Positions 1 through 51,167 of a stretch of DNA of 51,167 bases are shown in pieces. The stretch comes from Bacteroidota bacterium (lineage in GTDB: Bacteria > Bacteroidota > Bacteroidia > Flavobacteriales_C > GCA-002722245). The notes under the pieces are model-generated. The model searched no databases, was not told where the DNA came from, and saw only the letters and a program-made list of their open reading frames with translations. A program made the translations under genes and the position numbers. The DNA is taken from positions 1 to 51,167 of the forward strand of contig JAPLEZ010000035.1 of the NCBI GenBank assembly GCA_026390935.1. Direction: 5' to 3'. Positions within the stretch are counted from its first letter, which is position 1. Every line of letters begins with the position of its first letter.

Positions 1-151
1 AAAATATGAGCGTCATAAGAAACTGCGCCATCAATCTACTAGCTAAGGCCAACATAGGTGGAATATCTAAAACCATTAGATTTATCGGAAATGACATAAA
101 GCAATTAATCAACCTTGTGATCAAAGAATGAATCAGTCCTGCCCGCAGGGG

Positions 152-247
152 GAGGTGGTTAATAGAAAGAAAAAACCATGAAATTAATTTAAATAACCAC
201 CTCGCCTTTCAGGCACTCCTCCTTGAAAAGGAGGAGAGTTAGTTAGC
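152..247. repeat. Dispersed hairpin repeat, left copy
   Basis: Positions 192-247 hold a repeat found again in opposite orientation at 51079-51135, with only a few differences in the hairpin loop. It starts with AACCACCTCGCC and includes a stem of CTCCTCCTT (216-224) pairing with AAGGAGGAG (228-236). A second inverted part-copy, GAGGTGGTTAAT at 152-163, faces it. The remainder of 1-280 shows no gene. This is probably a high-copy intergenic repeat of the genome. Confidence 0.7.
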
Positions 248-280
248 AGCCCATTTTGTTAAGACCATCCTCAACGAAAC

Positions 281-6093: not shown

Positions 6094-6168
6094 GTCTGAA
6101 CCTTGATTCACTTGATTAAAGGATATGAATCAAGATAATCTTTCAATCAAGTGAATCAAGGTTCAGAC
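6094..6168 (-). terminator. Long perfect inverted repeat, probable terminator or REP-like hairpin
   Basis: A 24-bp perfect inverted repeat (6094-6117 and 6145-6168, beginning GTCTGAACCTTGATTCAC) encloses a 27-base loop. It lies 5 bases after the stop codon of the L,D-transpeptidase gene that ends at 6173 and about 115 bases before the start codon of the alpha-2-macroglobulin gene. No clear T-run follows it, so it may act as an mRNA 3'-end stabiliser or repeat element rather than a classic terminator. Confidence 0.5.
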
Positions 6169-28046: not shown

Positions 28047-28530
28047 CGACACGAAATTTTTATACTCAAAGATTGAAGCAATCCCTCTGATAGATCCTGA
28101 AACAAGTTCAGGATGACAAATGTGAACCTTACTCTTCAGGGAATGCCCGCTAATGTCATCCTGAACTTGTTTCAGGATCTACCTATCTCAGCTATAAAAT
28201 TTCTTTAATTTTTGAGTGCGGAAAATTTCGAAACGAGCCGGAGTATAATTATTAACTAAAATAACATGACACTCACCAAGGATTTAATTTTTTTCCTCGC
28301 GCGCGTCTGTGACTTACTGGTATTAAAGTTTATTATGTTTCAAACAATAATGGATGACAAATGTGAACCTTACTCTTCAGGGAATGCCCGCTAATGTCAT
28401 CCTGAACTTGTTTCAGGATCTATTTAACTAAGTTATAGGATTGCTTCAATCTTTGAGTACAAAAATTTTCGCAATGACGAACTGGGTAGAATTATCAACT
28501 AAAAAAATATGACGCGCACCAAGGATTTTA
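28047..28530. repeat. Palindromic repeat locus A, two tandem cores (REP/MITE-like)
   Basis: This fills the intergenic gap upstream of the NdvB remnant. A 25-bp perfect inverted pair (28093-28117 and 28155-28179; each also folds on itself, ATCCTGAA...TTCAGGAT) surrounds a 37-base core. The last 70 bases (28111-28180) recur exactly at 28352-28421, 241 bases on. Outer arms (28047-28085 and 28438-28479) are inverted copies of each other. The tail CACCAAGGATTT is also duplicated (28274 and 28517), the second copy touching the stop of the phosphorylase gene. The same family occupies 42831-43480. No coding potential was seen in 27754-28527. Confidence 0.8.
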
Positions 28531-35269: not shown

Positions 35270-35455
35270 CCTGCTTCGCAAAGTTTAAGCGCAGCGTAAC
35301 TTTGCGAAACCACGAGTTTACTTGGAAGTTTTCAACTTCCTTTTTCTGCAAGAAAAAAAAATTTATGGTAGTGTTCTTCTTCGAAGAAAGAAGTTGAAAA
35401 CTTCTATGAGGGCTTGTCAAATCACCAAGTTCGCTGCGCTAAACTTGATGAGGTG
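35270..35455. repeat. Second palindromic repeat family, free copy
   Basis: A cluster of hairpins: TTCGCAAAGTT facing AACTTTGCGAA, GGAAGTT-TTC-AACTTCC near 35324, TTCTTCGAAGAA and GAAGTTGAAAACTTC near 35390. Twenty-nine bases (35320-35348) recur exactly, in reverse, at 43151-43179 inside repeat locus B. Motifs of the form AAGTT-CGC-TGCGCTAAACTT are also shared. The whole gap 35155-35459 contains no gene. Confidence 0.65.
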
Positions 35456-35459
35456 GAGA

Positions 35460-41900: not shown

Positions 41901-42067
41901 TGACTTTACTGAAAGATGTAATTGAAATTTACTTTCCGATTTTCATGTCGGACCAGCTCAAAAATTCATACGAAACATCTGCGTTTTCCTTCAATTATTT
42001 CCAAAAAATTCGTTTCTTGCTGAACTTTAACAACATGAATTTATTGAAGAAGCTGAAAGATTTATAA
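38972..42067 (+). CDS. M1 family metallopeptidase (aminopeptidase N-like)
   Basis: 1031 residues with signal peptide (MMKSALRFFVTLFLVFISNTSFA). The N-terminal beta domain has the typical start (YKIEVALNDQKHELNGFIEIEYINNSPDTLNFLLIHLWPNAY). The catalytic domain carries the zinc site H381-E382-x-x-H385 in HEVGHNWFYG with the third ligand E404 in WMDEG, and GSGMEYPNI in place of the GAMEN exopeptidase motif. Residues about 640-1031 look beta-rich with repeated long amphipathic strands, possibly an outer-membrane barrel-like part. It starts 3 bases after the TlpA-like gene and shares one base with lpxH. Cleaves N-terminal residues of peptides outside the cytoplasm; the specific substrate is unknown. 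Confidence 0.9.
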   Translation: MMKSALRFFVTLFLVFISNTSFAYWQQEVNYKIEVALNDQKHELNGFIEIEYINNSPDTLNFLLIHLWPNAYKNEETALGQQLLVVDKTNFHWSEKKDRGFIDSLDFKINQQNAKWSYYNKQIDIAKIELGQALLPGQKTTITTPFRVKIPLGTFSRLGHISQSYQITQWYPKPAVYDAQGWHPLNYLNQGEFYSEYGSFNVKITLPENYVVGATGDLQGESGEKELQWLQYKVKQTEEKIKKAKDGRWAKIFDKENDTIRTASSSRVKTLEYAQHNIHDFAWFANKEWNVLKGEVLLPQSQRKVTTWAMFTDAESYLWQKSLTYLHDATYNYSLWNGEYPYNHVTAVDGSLSAGSGMEYPNITVIGESDSDLSLEEVIMHEVGHNWFYGILGSNERRNAWMDEGINSFNEMRYLKQKYPKAYASSLLFGPIHGLLGKNDPPLFDLYYINYIHAALKGEDQKLDLTSADFSNDNYGAIVYSKSAAIFNYLFNYLGQEKFDYCMKMYFNQWKFKHPQPKDLEQIFTENCKEDLSWFFNDLLKTDKVVDYQIINSGLVNETTTYNDTKKSISVLVKNTGEIESPVSISCFQNDSLVLHEWFSGFKGTEVLCFNSNVDFNKIVIDAEHSMPEINRSNNTLNSGIFPRMEPIKLSPVLSMENPKYNNVYFLPTVGFNEYDRFMLGMAFHNYQFPMKNTRFWINPTYSFKNKIMNGDAHLRYFIRKPLPFLSGMEAGVALKQYSINEYAGVSAQFQKIEPSIRFIFKKKDANSPYSTELVTRMVRLNKEMIAGLGDNKYEVRNNWKNYYEAKFIITKKAATNSFVLTPLWQLGPDFQKITITGDFRFKLNKQGNELKVRIFGGKFLDQAYLPTQQFTLRGHRDEDYLYDNVLIGRGVYNSIYMSSQQIYTADGGFKFGLYGNDIRGKNWMAAINFTYDLPIPAGPNGPSKPTYLFALFADLGTSDGVLNNGASFYYDSGIQLTLLKDVIEIYFPIFMSDQLKNSYETSAFSFNYFQKIRFLLNFNNMNLLKKLKDL

Positions 42068-42816
42068 TGACCACCAAAAACAAAATATATTTTCTCTCCG
42101 ATTTTCACCTCGGCGTTCCTTCCAAAGAGGAAAGTTTGATTCGTGAAAAAAAGATTGTCGCTTTTTTAGATTCAATAAAAGATTCGGCAGCTGAAATATA
42201 TTTAGTGGGTGACATTTTCGATTTCTGGTTTGAGTACAAACATGTTGCTCCGAAAGGGCATGTGCGCATGCTGGGGAAATTGGCGGAACTTTCCGACAGC
42301 GGAGTTAAACTACACATTTTCACAGGCAATCACGACATGTGGATTTTTGATTACCTGCCTTCTGAAATTGGCGCTACACTTTACCGCACACCGGTTGAAA
42401 AAACCTTCAATGGCAAAACATTTTTAATTGGTCACGGCGACGGCTTAGGTCCGGGTGACAAGCCATACAAAGTCATTAAAAAAATATTCGCCAGTAAATT
42501 GTGTCAGTGGTTATTTGCGCGTATTCATCCCAACCTGGGAATTTCAATTGCAAATTTCTGGTCGGGAAAAAGCAGAATGGCCAACAAAATAAAAGATCAG
42601 TTTTACTTAGGTGACGACAAAGAATATCTGGTAGTTTACTGCAATGATGTTTTAAAAACAAAGCATTACGATTATTTCATTTTCGGGCATCGCCACTTGC
42701 CACTCGACATACTTTTATCTAATAAAAAATCACGCTACATTAATTTGGGAGAATGGGTGATGAATCCGCATTACGTGGTAATTGATGGCGAGGAAGTGAA
42801 GTTGGTGAAGTTGTAA
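42067..42816 (+). CDS. lpxH: UDP-2,3-diacylglucosamine diphosphatase
   Basis: 249 residues, typical length. Calcineurin-like phosphoesterase motifs in order: SDFHLG (D12, H14), VGDIFDFWFEY, TGNHDMW, GHGDGLGPGD and FGHRHLPLD. The DFW variant after GDIFD is the LpxH hallmark. It hydrolyses UDP-2,3-diacylglucosamine to lipid X in lipid A synthesis, at the inner face of the cytoplasmic membrane, using Mn2+. Its ATG overlaps the stop of the peptidase gene (TAATG), implying coupled translation. The stop is followed after 14 bases by the outer arm of a 650-bp palindromic repeat locus. Confidence 0.9.
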   Translation: MTTKNKIYFLSDFHLGVPSKEESLIREKKIVAFLDSIKDSAAEIYLVGDIFDFWFEYKHVAPKGHVRMLGKLAELSDSGVKLHIFTGNHDMWIFDYLPSEIGATLYRTPVEKTFNGKTFLIGHGDGLGPGDKPYKVIKKIFASKLCQWLFARIHPNLGISIANFWSGKSRMANKIKDQFYLGDDKEYLVVYCNDVLKTKHYDYFIFGHRHLPLDILLSNKKSRYINLGEWVMNPHYVVIDGEEVKLVKL

Positions 42817-42830
42817 TAACAAACAGCCCA

Positions 42831-43480
42831 CACGCTCGTCATTGCGAAAATTTTTGTACTCAAAAATTAAAGCAATCCCTCTACTTTTTTTCAAAATCAA
42901 ATGGATCCTGAAACAAGTTCAGGATGACAAATGTGAACGATTCTCAAAAAAGAATTCAAAATATATTTCAGGGAATGGAACGGTAATGTCATCCTGAACT
43001 TGTTTCGCCGCTTCACCAAGTTTAGCGAAACGAACTTAGTGATTTTACGAACGCACTTAGAAGCTTTCAGCTCAAAGACCGAAAGTTCCTTTCGCCTCTT
43101 AATATCAAATCTCGAAGAGGAACATCCCGAATAACCTTAATTTTTTCTTTCAGAAAAAGGAAGTTGAAAACTTCCAAGTAGATACGAAATTTCGCGAAGT
43201 TCGCTTCGCTAAACTTCACGAAGCGATGAAAATAAGAGCGCATTGGGAATGAGATCGCTTCACTTTTGAGCACAAAATTTCCGCAAGGACGCACTGAGTA
43301 TAAGGTGCGTAAGGTTTCGAACAGTAATGAATGACAAATGTGATCGATTCTCAAAAAAGAATTCAAAATATATTTCAGGGAATGGAACGGTAATGTCATC
43401 CTGAACTTGTTTCAGGATCTATAAAACATTAGGGATTGCTTTAATTTTTGAGTACAAAAATTTTCGCAATGACGAGCGTG
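42831..43480. repeat. Palindromic repeat locus B with perfect 50-bp inverted ends
   Basis: The ends 42831-42880 and 43431-43480 (CACGCTCGTCATTGCGAAAA...) are perfect 50-bp inverted repeats. Inside are the 25-bp inverted units of locus A (42904-42928 and 43395-43419) and two direct core copies (about 42923-43006 and 43328-43412) containing TGACAAATGTGA, AAAGAATTCAAAATATATTT and AACGGTAATGTCATCC. Between the cores a block of the second repeat family (about 43007-43270) is inserted. The element fills the gap between convergent lpxH and the large CHU_C gene, ending 4 bases from the latter's stop. No protein is encoded. Confidence 0.88.
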
Positions 43481-43484
43481 AAAA

Positions 43485-46400
43485 TCAATACATCACCTCC
43501 ATCCATCCCGTTGCCTCCCCTTTTTTATCTGCAGTATCTGTCCACCTCACAATCCAATAATACACTCCAGGCGCAACTGTTTGTCCGAGATAAGTAGCGT
43601 CCCACTCAGGAATTTCAACTACTTTGCCTCTTTCATACATCAACAATCCCCATCGATCGTACACCACAAAATAAGTTTCTTTCAATTTTCCTAAGGTAGA
43701 ATCGTTGACATATTTAGGATAAAAATGATCGTTTTTTCCATCACCATTCGGACTCACCCAGTTTGGAAAATCCCATACGAGGGGAGTACAATGATCACTT
43801 AAAACAAGAGTATCGCTGGCAGTGCATCCACCTTTAGAAACCTTAACTATCACCGTTTGTGCATTGGTAATTTCAATGGACGATAAGCTACTATTGTCCA
43901 TCCAAGTCACCGAAGCAAAAGTATCGGGAACAGCAATTTTAAAAGTATGTCCGAGCTCCATAAAACACAATGCTGTATCCTTGCCTAAATTCACTTTTGG
44001 TTTTGCAACAGGCTCTACAGTAACACTATCAATTCCTTTGCAATTTCGAGCGTCAATTACCATCACTTTTTTCTTTCCAAACGATACCAGTAATATTGAA
44101 TCAATCCCTGCTACTCCATCCCAAGCGTACGATAAGGGAACTGTGTGAACACCAGTAACAGTAGCTTTCAACACCACAGGATCTCCTGAACAAGCTGGCG
44201 ATGGATCGTTTAAAGAGACATTTAAATTACTTCCTGCATTCACCTGAACAAATAAAGTGTCCTTACATGAGTTGTTGTTTTCTACCAACACCCAATGTTT
44301 TCCAATTGAAGAAATAGATGTTGTTTTTGCTGCAGCAGCATTGTCCCATAAATACGATTTCCATGCTCCAGCATCTACTGTAATACTTCCTCCAGCGCAT
44401 ACCGAAGTGTCGCTGATAGCTCCTGATGGCAAATCATTAACGATTAAAGTTGTGGTTAAACTATCTGTACAACCCGCTAAATTTTGAACCACCACCCAAT
44501 ATACGCCGGCCGTTTTTGCTACAATAGAGGAATCTATGGAACCATTCGACCATTTATAAGAAGGATAAGTTCCGGGATACAATAGCGCTGAATCTCCGTT
44601 ACAAATAGTAGTATTCGGTAAAGAACCTACATTGATTGCATTGAGAATAATATTCATAGTATCTGATTGATCACAACCTGAAACGGGATCTGCTACTTTT
44701 ACAAAATACTGTCCGATAGTATTCACTGAAAGAGATGATGAATTGTCACCCGTCGACCATAAGTAATTATAGCCAGCAGAAAGTGAAGGATTCAAAACAA
44801 CAGCTGGAATAAAAGGATCGGAGCATCTTGTGAGATCAGCTCCCAAATCAACTTTAGAAATAGGATTGCCAAGCAAAGAAAATGAAAAAGTGCTTTTGCA
44901 ATTCTTGTTGTTCTCCACAACTACCGAATGAATGCCGAGCGTTGAAATAGTATTAGTAGAATTTACAGAAGCATCATCCCACAAGTACGACAACCATGAA
45001 CCTGCATTCACCAACACTGCTTCACCGCGACAAGAGTACACATCGTTAATTACTCCGACAGGTTTTAAATTCATGGAAATTGTTGCTGCAACACTATCCG
45101 CGCATCCCACAGCATTTTTTACTACTACCCAATACACGCCAGGAGTTTTTACTTTCAAGGACGAAGAAGTGGAATTATCCGACCATCTATAAGAATTAAA
45201 AACGCCTGGCGTCAACAGCAAAGAATCATCTTCACAAAATTCAGCGTCGCTTAAAGCAGCAGAAGGCAAAACTTCTTGAGTGATTTTTATGGTGTCCGAA
45301 TTTGAACAAGTAGAAACATTATCGGTCACCTTCACAAAATATTCTCCAAAAGCATTTACAGAAATTGTTGGAGTAGCTTCAGCAGTAGACCACAAGTAAA
45401 CAAACGCGTTAGGTAGTGCCGGATTTAAAATCACTACTGGAGAAAAAGGATTGGTGCAACGTTTTAAATCGGCACCGAGATTTACTGTGGGAATTGATTT
45501 TTGTTTGATCTCAAAAGTATCGCGATCAGCAATATTTTGAATGCCTTTCACTTCTACCCAATATAATCCAGGAGTCACATTGCTTAGCGTAAGCGTTGGC
45601 GTCACAGCCCCCGTCGACCATAAATAAGAAGTAGCGCAAGCTTGTGTGACATCCAAATTTAATGTGATGGTAGAGCACGTTGCTGTGTCTTTAATATCCA
45701 CTATAGGCTGCGTGCACAGCGATGCAAATTCAGAAGTATTTCCCAAGGCATTAGTAGCAGTTACGATGAGCGAATTACATGCAGCACCACCCACTTTTGA
45801 ATAAGTCCAAGTGCCATCTCCCGCTACCACCACACTGGCCAGCCATGTTTGTCCCTGCGAATTTCCACTGAAACATAAATTACAAGCATCAGGCACATAA
45901 ATATCAATGATATCGCCTGGAGTACCGGTTCCAAAAGTTTTGGTTTCAGTAGAAGTTCTGTCCACAACAGGCTTTGATTTTCCATTATTACCGATAACAG
46001 AAGTGAGTAATCCGGTTTTTTCACTTTGCGTAATTCCTTTTACGCCATTGCAATAAATTGCATTTTTACGCACAGTAATTTTTGATGGAGCGCCACCAAC
46101 ATAAGCAACTCCACTGTACCATTCGCTGATAAAAACACCCGCTTGTCCGTTGTTAAAAATTTGATTGGCCTCTCCCACTCCATTAAAATCAACACCCACC
46201 ACAACATTTTGCACATCGCTGTTGAGTAAATCCACACCATGTTCGCCATTGTAGGAAAAAATATTTCCGTACACTTTATTTCCTGTTGAATTTTGGTTGA
46301 ACGACAATCCGTCGCCAGTATTATAACTTATATTGTTGTGCTGAATCAAATTATTATGAACGCCCAACTGATACTCTACACCAGTAAAATTAGGCAATGC

Positions 46401-47045
46401 AGTACCATTGACACTAATTCCTACTTTGTTGTTTTCAACTGTATTGTTGGTAGCAGGAGCTGTAGTCACCCAAACGCCACGAGTTAAGTTTCCCGACAAA
46501 ATATTTCCATCGGAAGCCGAAGCACCACCTATGATATTATTAGAAGATCCCATGATCCAAACTCCATTCACATTTGGCTTTGCTATTGTACCAGTAACGT
46601 CTGTACCAATGTAGCAACGCTTCACAGTAACGTCGTGAGCCAGCGAAATTAAAATAGGAGAAGAATTCGTATTATAAGTAAAGCCATTCAACACCAATCC
46701 CTGAAACACTGTGAAACTACCGCCAACAGAATTCAAATCAAATCCGGTTTGCGCTGCGCATAAGGTTCCATCAAATTCAATATTTGGTTTCCCAGCTGCT
46801 AATCCGTCAATAGTCAACTGTTTTCCAATGCTGTAAGAAGATAGAGGTTTGATGGTATGTGGGCCAGGTCCGGGAATATTAAACTGAATTACATCGCCAT
46901 TATTGGCTGTGGCCAACACCGCTCTGAAAGAACCTGCACCAGCATCGTTGGTGTTTGTGACAAATAATGTTGCGGCTTCTAATTGTTGTGCTATAATTAG
47001 CAACAAAAAAAACAATTTGAATTGAATATTGTATTTACGTCTCAT
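43485..47045 (-). CDS. Large secreted beta-helix/Ig-repeat protein with CHU_C C-terminal domain
   Basis: 1186 residues with signal peptide (MRRKYNIQFKLFFLLLIIAQQLEA). Residues about 25-340 form a parallel beta-helix (TNTNDAGAGSFRAVLATANNGDVIQFNI start, NNLIQHNNISYNTGDG, NKVYGNIFSYNGEHG). After a linker come about nine Ig/PKD-like repeats with paired cysteines; a three-repeat block (VNLGADLKRC..., YRWSDNS..., SYLWDDAS...) is present twice. The end is the gliding-motility/T9SS domain (WDFPNWVSPNGDGKNDHF, YDRWGLLMYERG, PGVYYWIVRW). Likely a surface-exposed adhesin exported by type IX secretion. Transcribed alone, with an unusual E. coli-like promoter upstream. Confidence 0.9.
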   Translation of the reverse strand: MRRKYNIQFKLFFLLLIIAQQLEAATLFVTNTNDAGAGSFRAVLATANNGDVIQFNIPGPGPHTIKPLSSYSIGKQLTIDGLAAGKPNIEFDGTLCAAQTGFDLNSVGGSFTVFQGLVLNGFTYNTNSSPILISLAHDVTVKRCYIGTDVTGTIAKPNVNGVWIMGSSNNIIGGASASDGNILSGNLTRGVWVTTAPATNNTVENNKVGISVNGTALPNFTGVEYQLGVHNNLIQHNNISYNTGDGLSFNQNSTGNKVYGNIFSYNGEHGVDLLNSDVQNVVVGVDFNGVGEANQIFNNGQAGVFISEWYSGVAYVGGAPSKITVRKNAIYCNGVKGITQSEKTGLLTSVIGNNGKSKPVVDRTSTETKTFGTGTPGDIIDIYVPDACNLCFSGNSQGQTWLASVVVAGDGTWTYSKVGGAACNSLIVTATNALGNTSEFASLCTQPIVDIKDTATCSTITLNLDVTQACATSYLWSTGAVTPTLTLSNVTPGLYWVEVKGIQNIADRDTFEIKQKSIPTVNLGADLKRCTNPFSPVVILNPALPNAFVYLWSTAEATPTISVNAFGEYFVKVTDNVSTCSNSDTIKITQEVLPSAALSDAEFCEDDSLLLTPGVFNSYRWSDNSTSSSLKVKTPGVYWVVVKNAVGCADSVAATISMNLKPVGVINDVYSCRGEAVLVNAGSWLSYLWDDASVNSTNTISTLGIHSVVVENNKNCKSTFSFSLLGNPISKVDLGADLTRCSDPFIPAVVLNPSLSAGYNYLWSTGDNSSSLSVNTIGQYFVKVADPVSGCDQSDTMNIILNAINVGSLPNTTICNGDSALLYPGTYPSYKWSNGSIDSSIVAKTAGVYWVVVQNLAGCTDSLTTTLIVNDLPSGAISDTSVCAGGSITVDAGAWKSYLWDNAAAAKTTSISSIGKHWVLVENNNSCKDTLFVQVNAGSNLNVSLNDPSPACSGDPVVLKATVTGVHTVPLSYAWDGVAGIDSILLVSFGKKKVMVIDARNCKGIDSVTVEPVAKPKVNLGKDTALCFMELGHTFKIAVPDTFASVTWMDNSSLSSIEITNAQTVIVKVSKGGCTASDTLVLSDHCTPLVWDFPNWVSPNGDGKNDHFYPKYVNDSTLGKLKETYFVVYDRWGLLMYERGKVVEIPEWDATYLGQTVAPGVYYWIVRWTDTADKKGEATGWMEVMY

Positions 47046-51043: not shown

Positions 51044-51078
51044 ATATTTTTTTTTAGAGTCCTTATCAAAAAATGCCA

Positions 51079-51135
51079 GCTAACTAACTCTCCTCCTTTT
51101 TTAAGGAGGAGTGCCTGAAAGGCGAGGTGGTTAAT
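51079..51135. repeat. Dispersed hairpin repeat, right copy
   Basis: This is the reverse-oriented counterpart of the repeat at 192-247: GCTAACTAACTCTCCTCC, a hairpin AAGGAGGAG, then GGCGAGGTGGTTAAT. It follows the last gene by about 35 bases and reaches almost to the window end. Confidence 0.75.
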
Positions 51136-51167
51136 AAAAAAAACAATTGAATCTATTTATATAACCA

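Follow-up and report, generated by a model that had tools for sequence, protein, structure and literature searches.

The 650-bp feature at 42831-43480 of the window (the whole 51,167-nt stretch of Bacteroidota DNA analysed here) is best read as a nested composite of separate, non-autonomous REP families present as REP dimers, a reading to which we assign a probability of roughly 0.82. This feature takes up the whole interval separating two convergent genes, starting 14 bp past the stop codon of the plus-strand gene (42816) and stopping 4 bp short of that of the minus-strand gene (43485). The sequence-only reading had placed the feature and its limits correctly and treated it as one element, whereas several independent REP families are stacked here, each of which recurs alone, B as dimers, A as pairs with unrelated spacers and C as dimers. 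The composite belongs to a known kind of object, and each of its REP families is scattered genome-wide as a small mobile element. The features are listed in Table 1; the left flanking gene is presumably LpxH-like.

Table 1. Repeat units and flanking genes in the window
Feature	Position	Strand	Evidence
Left flanking gene, calcineurin-like metallophosphoesterase	42067..42816	+	ORF, Pfam PF00149
A, left arm, CGTC tag 42837-42840, long hairpin ATTGC...GCAAT, tail CCC, tag outward	42831..42880	+	Perfect complement of 43431-43480; 41-mer copies; fold
B, left REP, first copy (TGTCATCCTGAACTTGTTTCAGGATC on - strand)	42904..42929	-	Exact match, one of 93 genome units
B core, first copy, long variant	42930..42986		Alignment with paralogues
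B, right REP, first copy, 6 nt missing at C junction	42987..43006	+	Complementarity, paralogue alignment
C, inverted dimer, REP type flanking the genome's RAYT genes	43007..43228		Paralogue alignment; repeats around L034 and L036 RAYT genes
D, right half of A-like dimer (CGTCCTTGCGG... on - strand)	43229..43330	+	Matches arms of D dimers in L040, L046, L055
B second copy, left-hairpin end and core, first 20 nt of left hairpin missing	43331..43393		83-bp direct repeat, 99%
B, complete right REP with tail CTA	43394..43422	+	26-mer match, fold
A, right arm, tag outward	43431..43480	-	Complementarity to left arm; 41-mer copies
Right flanking gene, CHU_C (type IX secretion signal) and beta-helix protein	43485..47045	-	ORF, Pfam PF13585, PF13229
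Second A-B-A stack, damaged A arms	28054..28236		Repeat comparison
Half stack, B right REP then A	28352..28480		Repeat comparison
Further C dimer	35273..35459	-	Genome search, paralogue alignment

Most of the architecture described from the sequence alone held up. The outer arms are 50 nt each, 100% complementary and 550 nt apart. The inner REP at 42904-42929 is perfectly complementary to 43394-43419 (one exact 26-mer on opposite strands) and also to the truncated 20 nt at 42987-43006, and structure prediction folded each inner REP as an 8-bp hairpin. The two direct core copies are real as 83-bp repeats (42924-43006 and 43331-43413; 82/83, 99% identical, spacing 407), but they are not whole elements, as one B is cut on the right, with the last 6 nt of its right hairpin gone, and the other on the left, lacking 20 nt of its left hairpin. 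Between them lies a second repeat family, as had been proposed, forming a 324-bp insert of C and D (43007-43330). The predicted RNA fold of the whole stretch was -249.5 kcal/mol compared to -139.8 +/- 8.4 for 20 shuffles (z = -13), which together with the genome-wide recurrence of the units argues that the structure is not due to chance. The feature contains a single ORF of 110 aa that had no Pfam match, in agreement with the claim that it encodes no protein. A single autonomous element was considered and rejected, as there is no coding capacity inside and the copies recovered include no gene that A or B flanks.

Copy numbers were taken from genome searches. A search with a 670-bp stretch returned at least 136 partial matches (40 of 180 candidate stretches were scored), and the only full-length match was the window itself. 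The genome has 93 B units and 22 A copies, more than the two copies that, with no empty sites, were to argue against mobility.

CGTC REPs are a large superfamily with no dedicated transposase known, defined by a CGTC/TGTC terminal tag, an 8-9 bp stem starting with AT, a 4-5 nt loop and a 3-nt tail (PMC3733652). Unit B reads TGTC-ATCCTGAA-CTTGT-TTCAGGAT-C, that is, a TGTC tag, an 8-bp stem starting with AT (ATCCTGAA/TTCAGGAT) with a predicted hairpin, the 5-nt loop CTTGT and a tail of CTA or CTG in the 38 dimers read. It is present in high copy as head-to-head dimers, and among the Y1 loci scanned, a scan of the Y1 class only, it was not associated with a transposase gene. By the published definition (PMC3733652) B is, as judged from its sequence, a CGTC-superfamily REP. 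The B 26-mer was found in 93 near-identical units here, with 0 matches for the reversed control, as compared to 4 in the nearest relative (G002, Flavobacteriales bacterium isolate nzgw150, JAHEZL01), 2 in G001 and 0 in both G003 and G004, all of the same genus. The units nearly always formed head-to-head dimers, most of them exactly 87 bp; the dimer core occurred in either orientation and a longer class of 105-111 bp included the window copy. Across the class, the B-like pattern was detected in 66 of 395 genomes and was very uneven, with high counts in G012 (85), G058 (75), G156 (87), G185 (83) and G343 (63) and none in most others; G330 and G380 also count among the high-copy genomes. In a hand count of the listed exact matches outside the genus, the third stem pair was complementary in 51 of 54, with all four Watson-Crick types represented. 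The B family thus appears, from its copy distribution, to have multiplied recently in a lineage-limited burst.

B shares with the CGTC-tagged REPs of Di Nocera, De Gregorio and Rocco (2013, PMC3733652) the TGTC/CGTC tag, the 8-bp AT-starting stem, the 5-nt loop, the 3-nt tail, the head-to-head dimers and an intergenic location without an attached transposase gene; it differs from them in a dimer core that is conserved in either orientation and in its recent lineage-specific burst. It also resembles the REPINs of Bertels and Rainey (PMC8049555), in which two inverted REPs and a short spacer make one large hairpin that spreads non-autonomously. The two inverted REPs and the short spacer are present in B dimers, but no cognate RAYT was found among the loci scanned, and the B core is conserved, not highly diverse as in REPINs.

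The outer arms belong to unit A, a 41-nt sequence GTCATTGCGAAAATTTTTGTACTCAAAAATTAAAGCAATCC behind a C that occurs as inverted pairs with unrelated spacers and with the tags outward. The 41-mer was present in 22 copies with up to 3 mismatches, 12 of them exact, compared to 0 for the reversed control, and elsewhere in the genus 13 copies were detected in G002 and none in the three other genomes. The window arms consist of the A family consensus and 6 further matching bp outside it. Recent origin or homogenisation, which had been read from the perfect arms, does not follow, as the arm sequence is the common A family sequence. The left arm had a predicted fold of -8.4 kcal/mol, and the predicted hairpin has a two-part stem (5 + 8 bp) with an internal loop and about 36 nt from tag to tail in place of the 8-9 bp stem and 4-5 nt loop of the CGTC definition. 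The CGTC tag and CCC tail fit, and we regard A as a putative CGTC-tagged long-hairpin relative that 'works like' a CGTC REP and do not file it as a member; its hairpin is much longer than those of the four published CGTC families (8-9 bp stems, PMC3733652), and its pairs carry the tags outward. A text search of the literature for the A motif returned no paper on repeats. Unit D (102 bp) is only the right half of an A-like dimer, and intact dimers of this kind were found in L040, L046 and L055.

Unit C, roughly 220 bp long, is an inverted dimer that combines an outer palindrome with the inner hairpin AAGCTTTCAGCTT; in the copy within the composite the inner hairpins lie at 43057-43074 (+) and 43160-43174 (-). 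The genome has three PF01797 (Y1) genes. Two of these, on contigs C135 and C106, encode RAYT (TnpA_REP) proteins of 181 aa each that are 71% identical to one another, and C-family repeats flank both genes as inverted ends (126 nt at 80% in L034 and 89 nt at 74% in L036). The RAYT homologue of G003 (L156) is likewise flanked by C-type inverted repeats (61 nt at 97%), and G002 has a C match some 125 bp away from its Y1 match. Many of the more distant homologues in the class have inverted hairpin repeats of their own that differ from C. Subclass 2.6 of the Bacteroidetes TnpA_REP proteins is described as about 179 aa long with the motifs NH[LIV]H, WQ and YIH[QN]NP (PMC6006769). Read by eye against these reference motifs (PMC6006769), and not with a subclass profile, the C106 protein contains NHVH, WQ and YIHNNP and the C135 protein YIHDNP, one residue off; both 181-aa RAYTs fit subclass 2.6 by these sequence motifs. 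As in subclass 2.6 REPs, the same repeat is found inverted around a RAYT gene. The C repeats flanking the RAYT genes, taken with the subclass 2.6 motifs, make C best read as the REP dimer of the RAYT, non-autonomous and probably moved by the RAYTs of this genome. The 181-aa Y1 protein, and its flanking inverted hairpin repeats of atypical form with further copies across the genome, resemble subclass 2.6 and its atypical REPs; unlike those (PMC6006769), C sits inside a REP of another superfamily and is fused to D. The third Y1 gene falls into a different group; it has GGGGACAGAC repeats at its borders and resembles the TIR-bordered genes of PMC3733652. A second Y1 gene group (R118 type) with inverted GGGGACAGAC-type repeats, resembling published TIRYT genes, was seen at L035, L182 and L184.

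The search for a RAYT suggested by the sequence-only reading therefore succeeded for C, whose family ends are carried by two RAYT genes, and not for A and B: strict and relaxed hairpin scans showed no A or B pair around any Y1 gene examined, in line with the published finding that CGTC REPs have no dedicated transposase (PMC3733652). The A and B copies recovered likewise included no A- or B-flanked gene, and G330, a near-complete genome with 25 CGTC matches (some in an array), had no PF01797 match. The absence of A and B from Y1 flanks and the G330 result agree with mobilisation by another enzyme and do not prove it. In G330:C4:346171-346700 the CGTC REP units form an array at multiples of 84 bp on one strand. 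The sole suggestive case of CGTC REPs flanking a Y1 gene, L171, was rejected, as the hairpin of its array is unlike A or B. At that locus (G039:C280, 1400-2990) a RAYT gene lies within direct repeats of about 230 bp containing CGTCATCGTCG...GACGATTAG, a possible CGTC-like tag.

Mobility was assessed by comparison with the nearest relative. The orthologous gap in G002 lies between the same two genes, measures only about 200 bp and has a different palindrome family where the composite would be; three B copies (contigs C92 and C93) face B-free orthologous sites in G002. The search for empty sites thus returned one composite-free gap and three B-free sites but no exact junction, the intergenic DNA of G002 having diverged so that the ends could not be placed to the base. 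Target-site duplications, also proposed as a check, had no constant length at the C copies, measuring 83 bp here (C and D), 15 bp at L058 and 0 at 12 others, and the constant-length duplication at the ends expected of a MITE or IS was not found. The many copies, the burst-like distribution, the composite-free gap and B-free sites in G002 and the RAYT genes with C ends support the view that the A, B and C families are mobile, non-autonomous and REPIN-like, and the earlier suggestion of a non-autonomous or REPIN-like element was largely right. The repeat filling the orthologous gap (G002:C28:153896-154025) is about 130 bp long with dozens of copies in G002, and another repeat family (AAGGAGGAGTGCCTGAAAGGCGAGGTGGTTA...) is found at both ends of the window (140-257 and 51069-51146); from their sequences the two are taken to be the same or related. 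A further family of about 78 bp (L194, 4005-4083), self-complementary as judged by two-strand matches, also has dozens of copies in G002.

The location between two stop codons, the extreme predicted fold stability and three terminator-like sites against 0.7 expected would suit a bidirectional terminator or structural RNA selected for the two convergent genes. We consider this very unlikely, since the nearest relative has no composite and a different palindrome in that gap and 23 of the 38 B dimers lie between co-directional genes (with 1 in an ORF and 1 in a divergent gap by a simple ORF-based classification). Rfam gave no meaningful match, the sole hit being a chance match to MIR5380 at 21.6 bits against a gathering score of 150. 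A terminator or structural RNA role, which had been proposed, is thus possible as a side effect of the very stable predicted hairpins, with no Rfam match near the curated threshold. Most likely there is no selected function at this locus; the nearest relative has another palindrome in this interval, which suggests that repeats of this kind are tolerated in such gaps whatever their family. Were either gene to read through, the predicted hairpins would be transcribed and could end transcripts or protect 3' ends.

The nested arrangement recurs. Of about 12 intact A pairs, four enclose B (the composite itself, L041, L051 and L052), and two further loci, the second stack in the window and L047, have B inside an A pair with one damaged or missing arm. 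With about 46 dimers, about 0.5 kb of A spacer and a few hundred kb of intergenic DNA, the random expectation of B in an A spacer is about 0.05 by our rough estimate, and on that estimate B within A pairs would be far commoner than chance. The A-B gap sequences differ from locus to locus, which argues for separate insertions. A composite mobile element moving whole in the manner of a MITE, with the A arms as terminal inverted repeats around B, C and D, could draw on the recurring A-B-A arrangements and on A pairs that hold different contents at different loci. It is nonetheless unlikely, as the full 650 bp was matched by the window alone, B, C and D were found without A at many loci, the A-B gaps vary and most A pairs hold short unrelated spacers. 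Among the REP dimers described within other palindromes and the mosaic intergenic repeats of Neisseria (PMC3733652), dimers likewise lie inside longer palindromes and CGTC REPs are interleaved with other families between genes; what differs here is the strict nesting of three to four families, one of which is that of a RAYT.

The best paralogues of the window's long B variant were only about 82% alike over the 61-bp core, compared to 82/83 between its own two copies, indicating that the duplication was local and recent, and we take the 99% identical 83-bp duplication to be a real sign of such an event. It could have arisen by replication-coupled insertion or by recombination with a circular or neighbouring copy, and it is not a known signature of RAYT activity. 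The same comparison counts against an assembly artefact in which repeats of different loci were misjoined in this 155-contig draft. Some contigs do begin in or beside these repeats (C84, C69 and C141), but the composite is internal to a 51-kb contig, has unique genes on either side, and shares its C-D junction with L037, making a misjoin highly improbable. At L264 (G000:C97:12500-14000) a B dimer at 656-873 has another palindromic element in its core with the 13-bp direct repeat ATGGTTCACATTT on either side; a palindrome in a B core with 13 bp on both sides points to an event similar to the insertion of C and D in B. A further small palindrome family, GTCTGAACCTTGATTCACTTGATTAAAGGAT with 31-nt arms at 94%, was seen at 6094-6168 of the window and near repeats in L038 and L266.

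Returning to the nested composite, the order of insertion was inferred from the nesting alone. An outer pair of A REPs would have come first, a B dimer would then have entered the A spacer, and C and D would last have entered B with the local 83-bp duplication. The C copies may derive from the RAYT REPtron as non-autonomous forms; the Y1 (HuH) proteins encoded on contigs C135 and C106 would mobilise them in trans by recognising their hairpins in single-stranded form, and A and B would be spread by a further enzyme. The part played by the stack at this locus is probably no more than passive, that of stable hairpins past the stop codons of two convergent genes. Outer-flank complementarity was also compared for insertion into pre-existing hairpins. 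It was not significant for B (run length p = 0.07, identity p = 0.68), and the signal for A (run-length p = 0.005) seems to reflect weak sequence conservation immediately beyond the tag.

We offer only tentatively, and with the odds against it, that in this lineage CGTC REPs like B are currently mobile through an enzyme other than a Y1/RAYT and home into other hairpin repeats (A pairs). Hairpin-targeted insertion of this sort, at times leaving a long local duplication, would then let REP families form nested stacks. Because the burst of B is recent and confined to one lineage, the missing enzyme can be sought in a smaller set of genes, those that this genome shares with the other high-copy genomes and that the relatives lack. 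The stack shows REPs as landing sites for other REPs, and the composite is of value in that it exemplifies REP nesting and points to a recent burst of CGTC REPs without a known enzyme.
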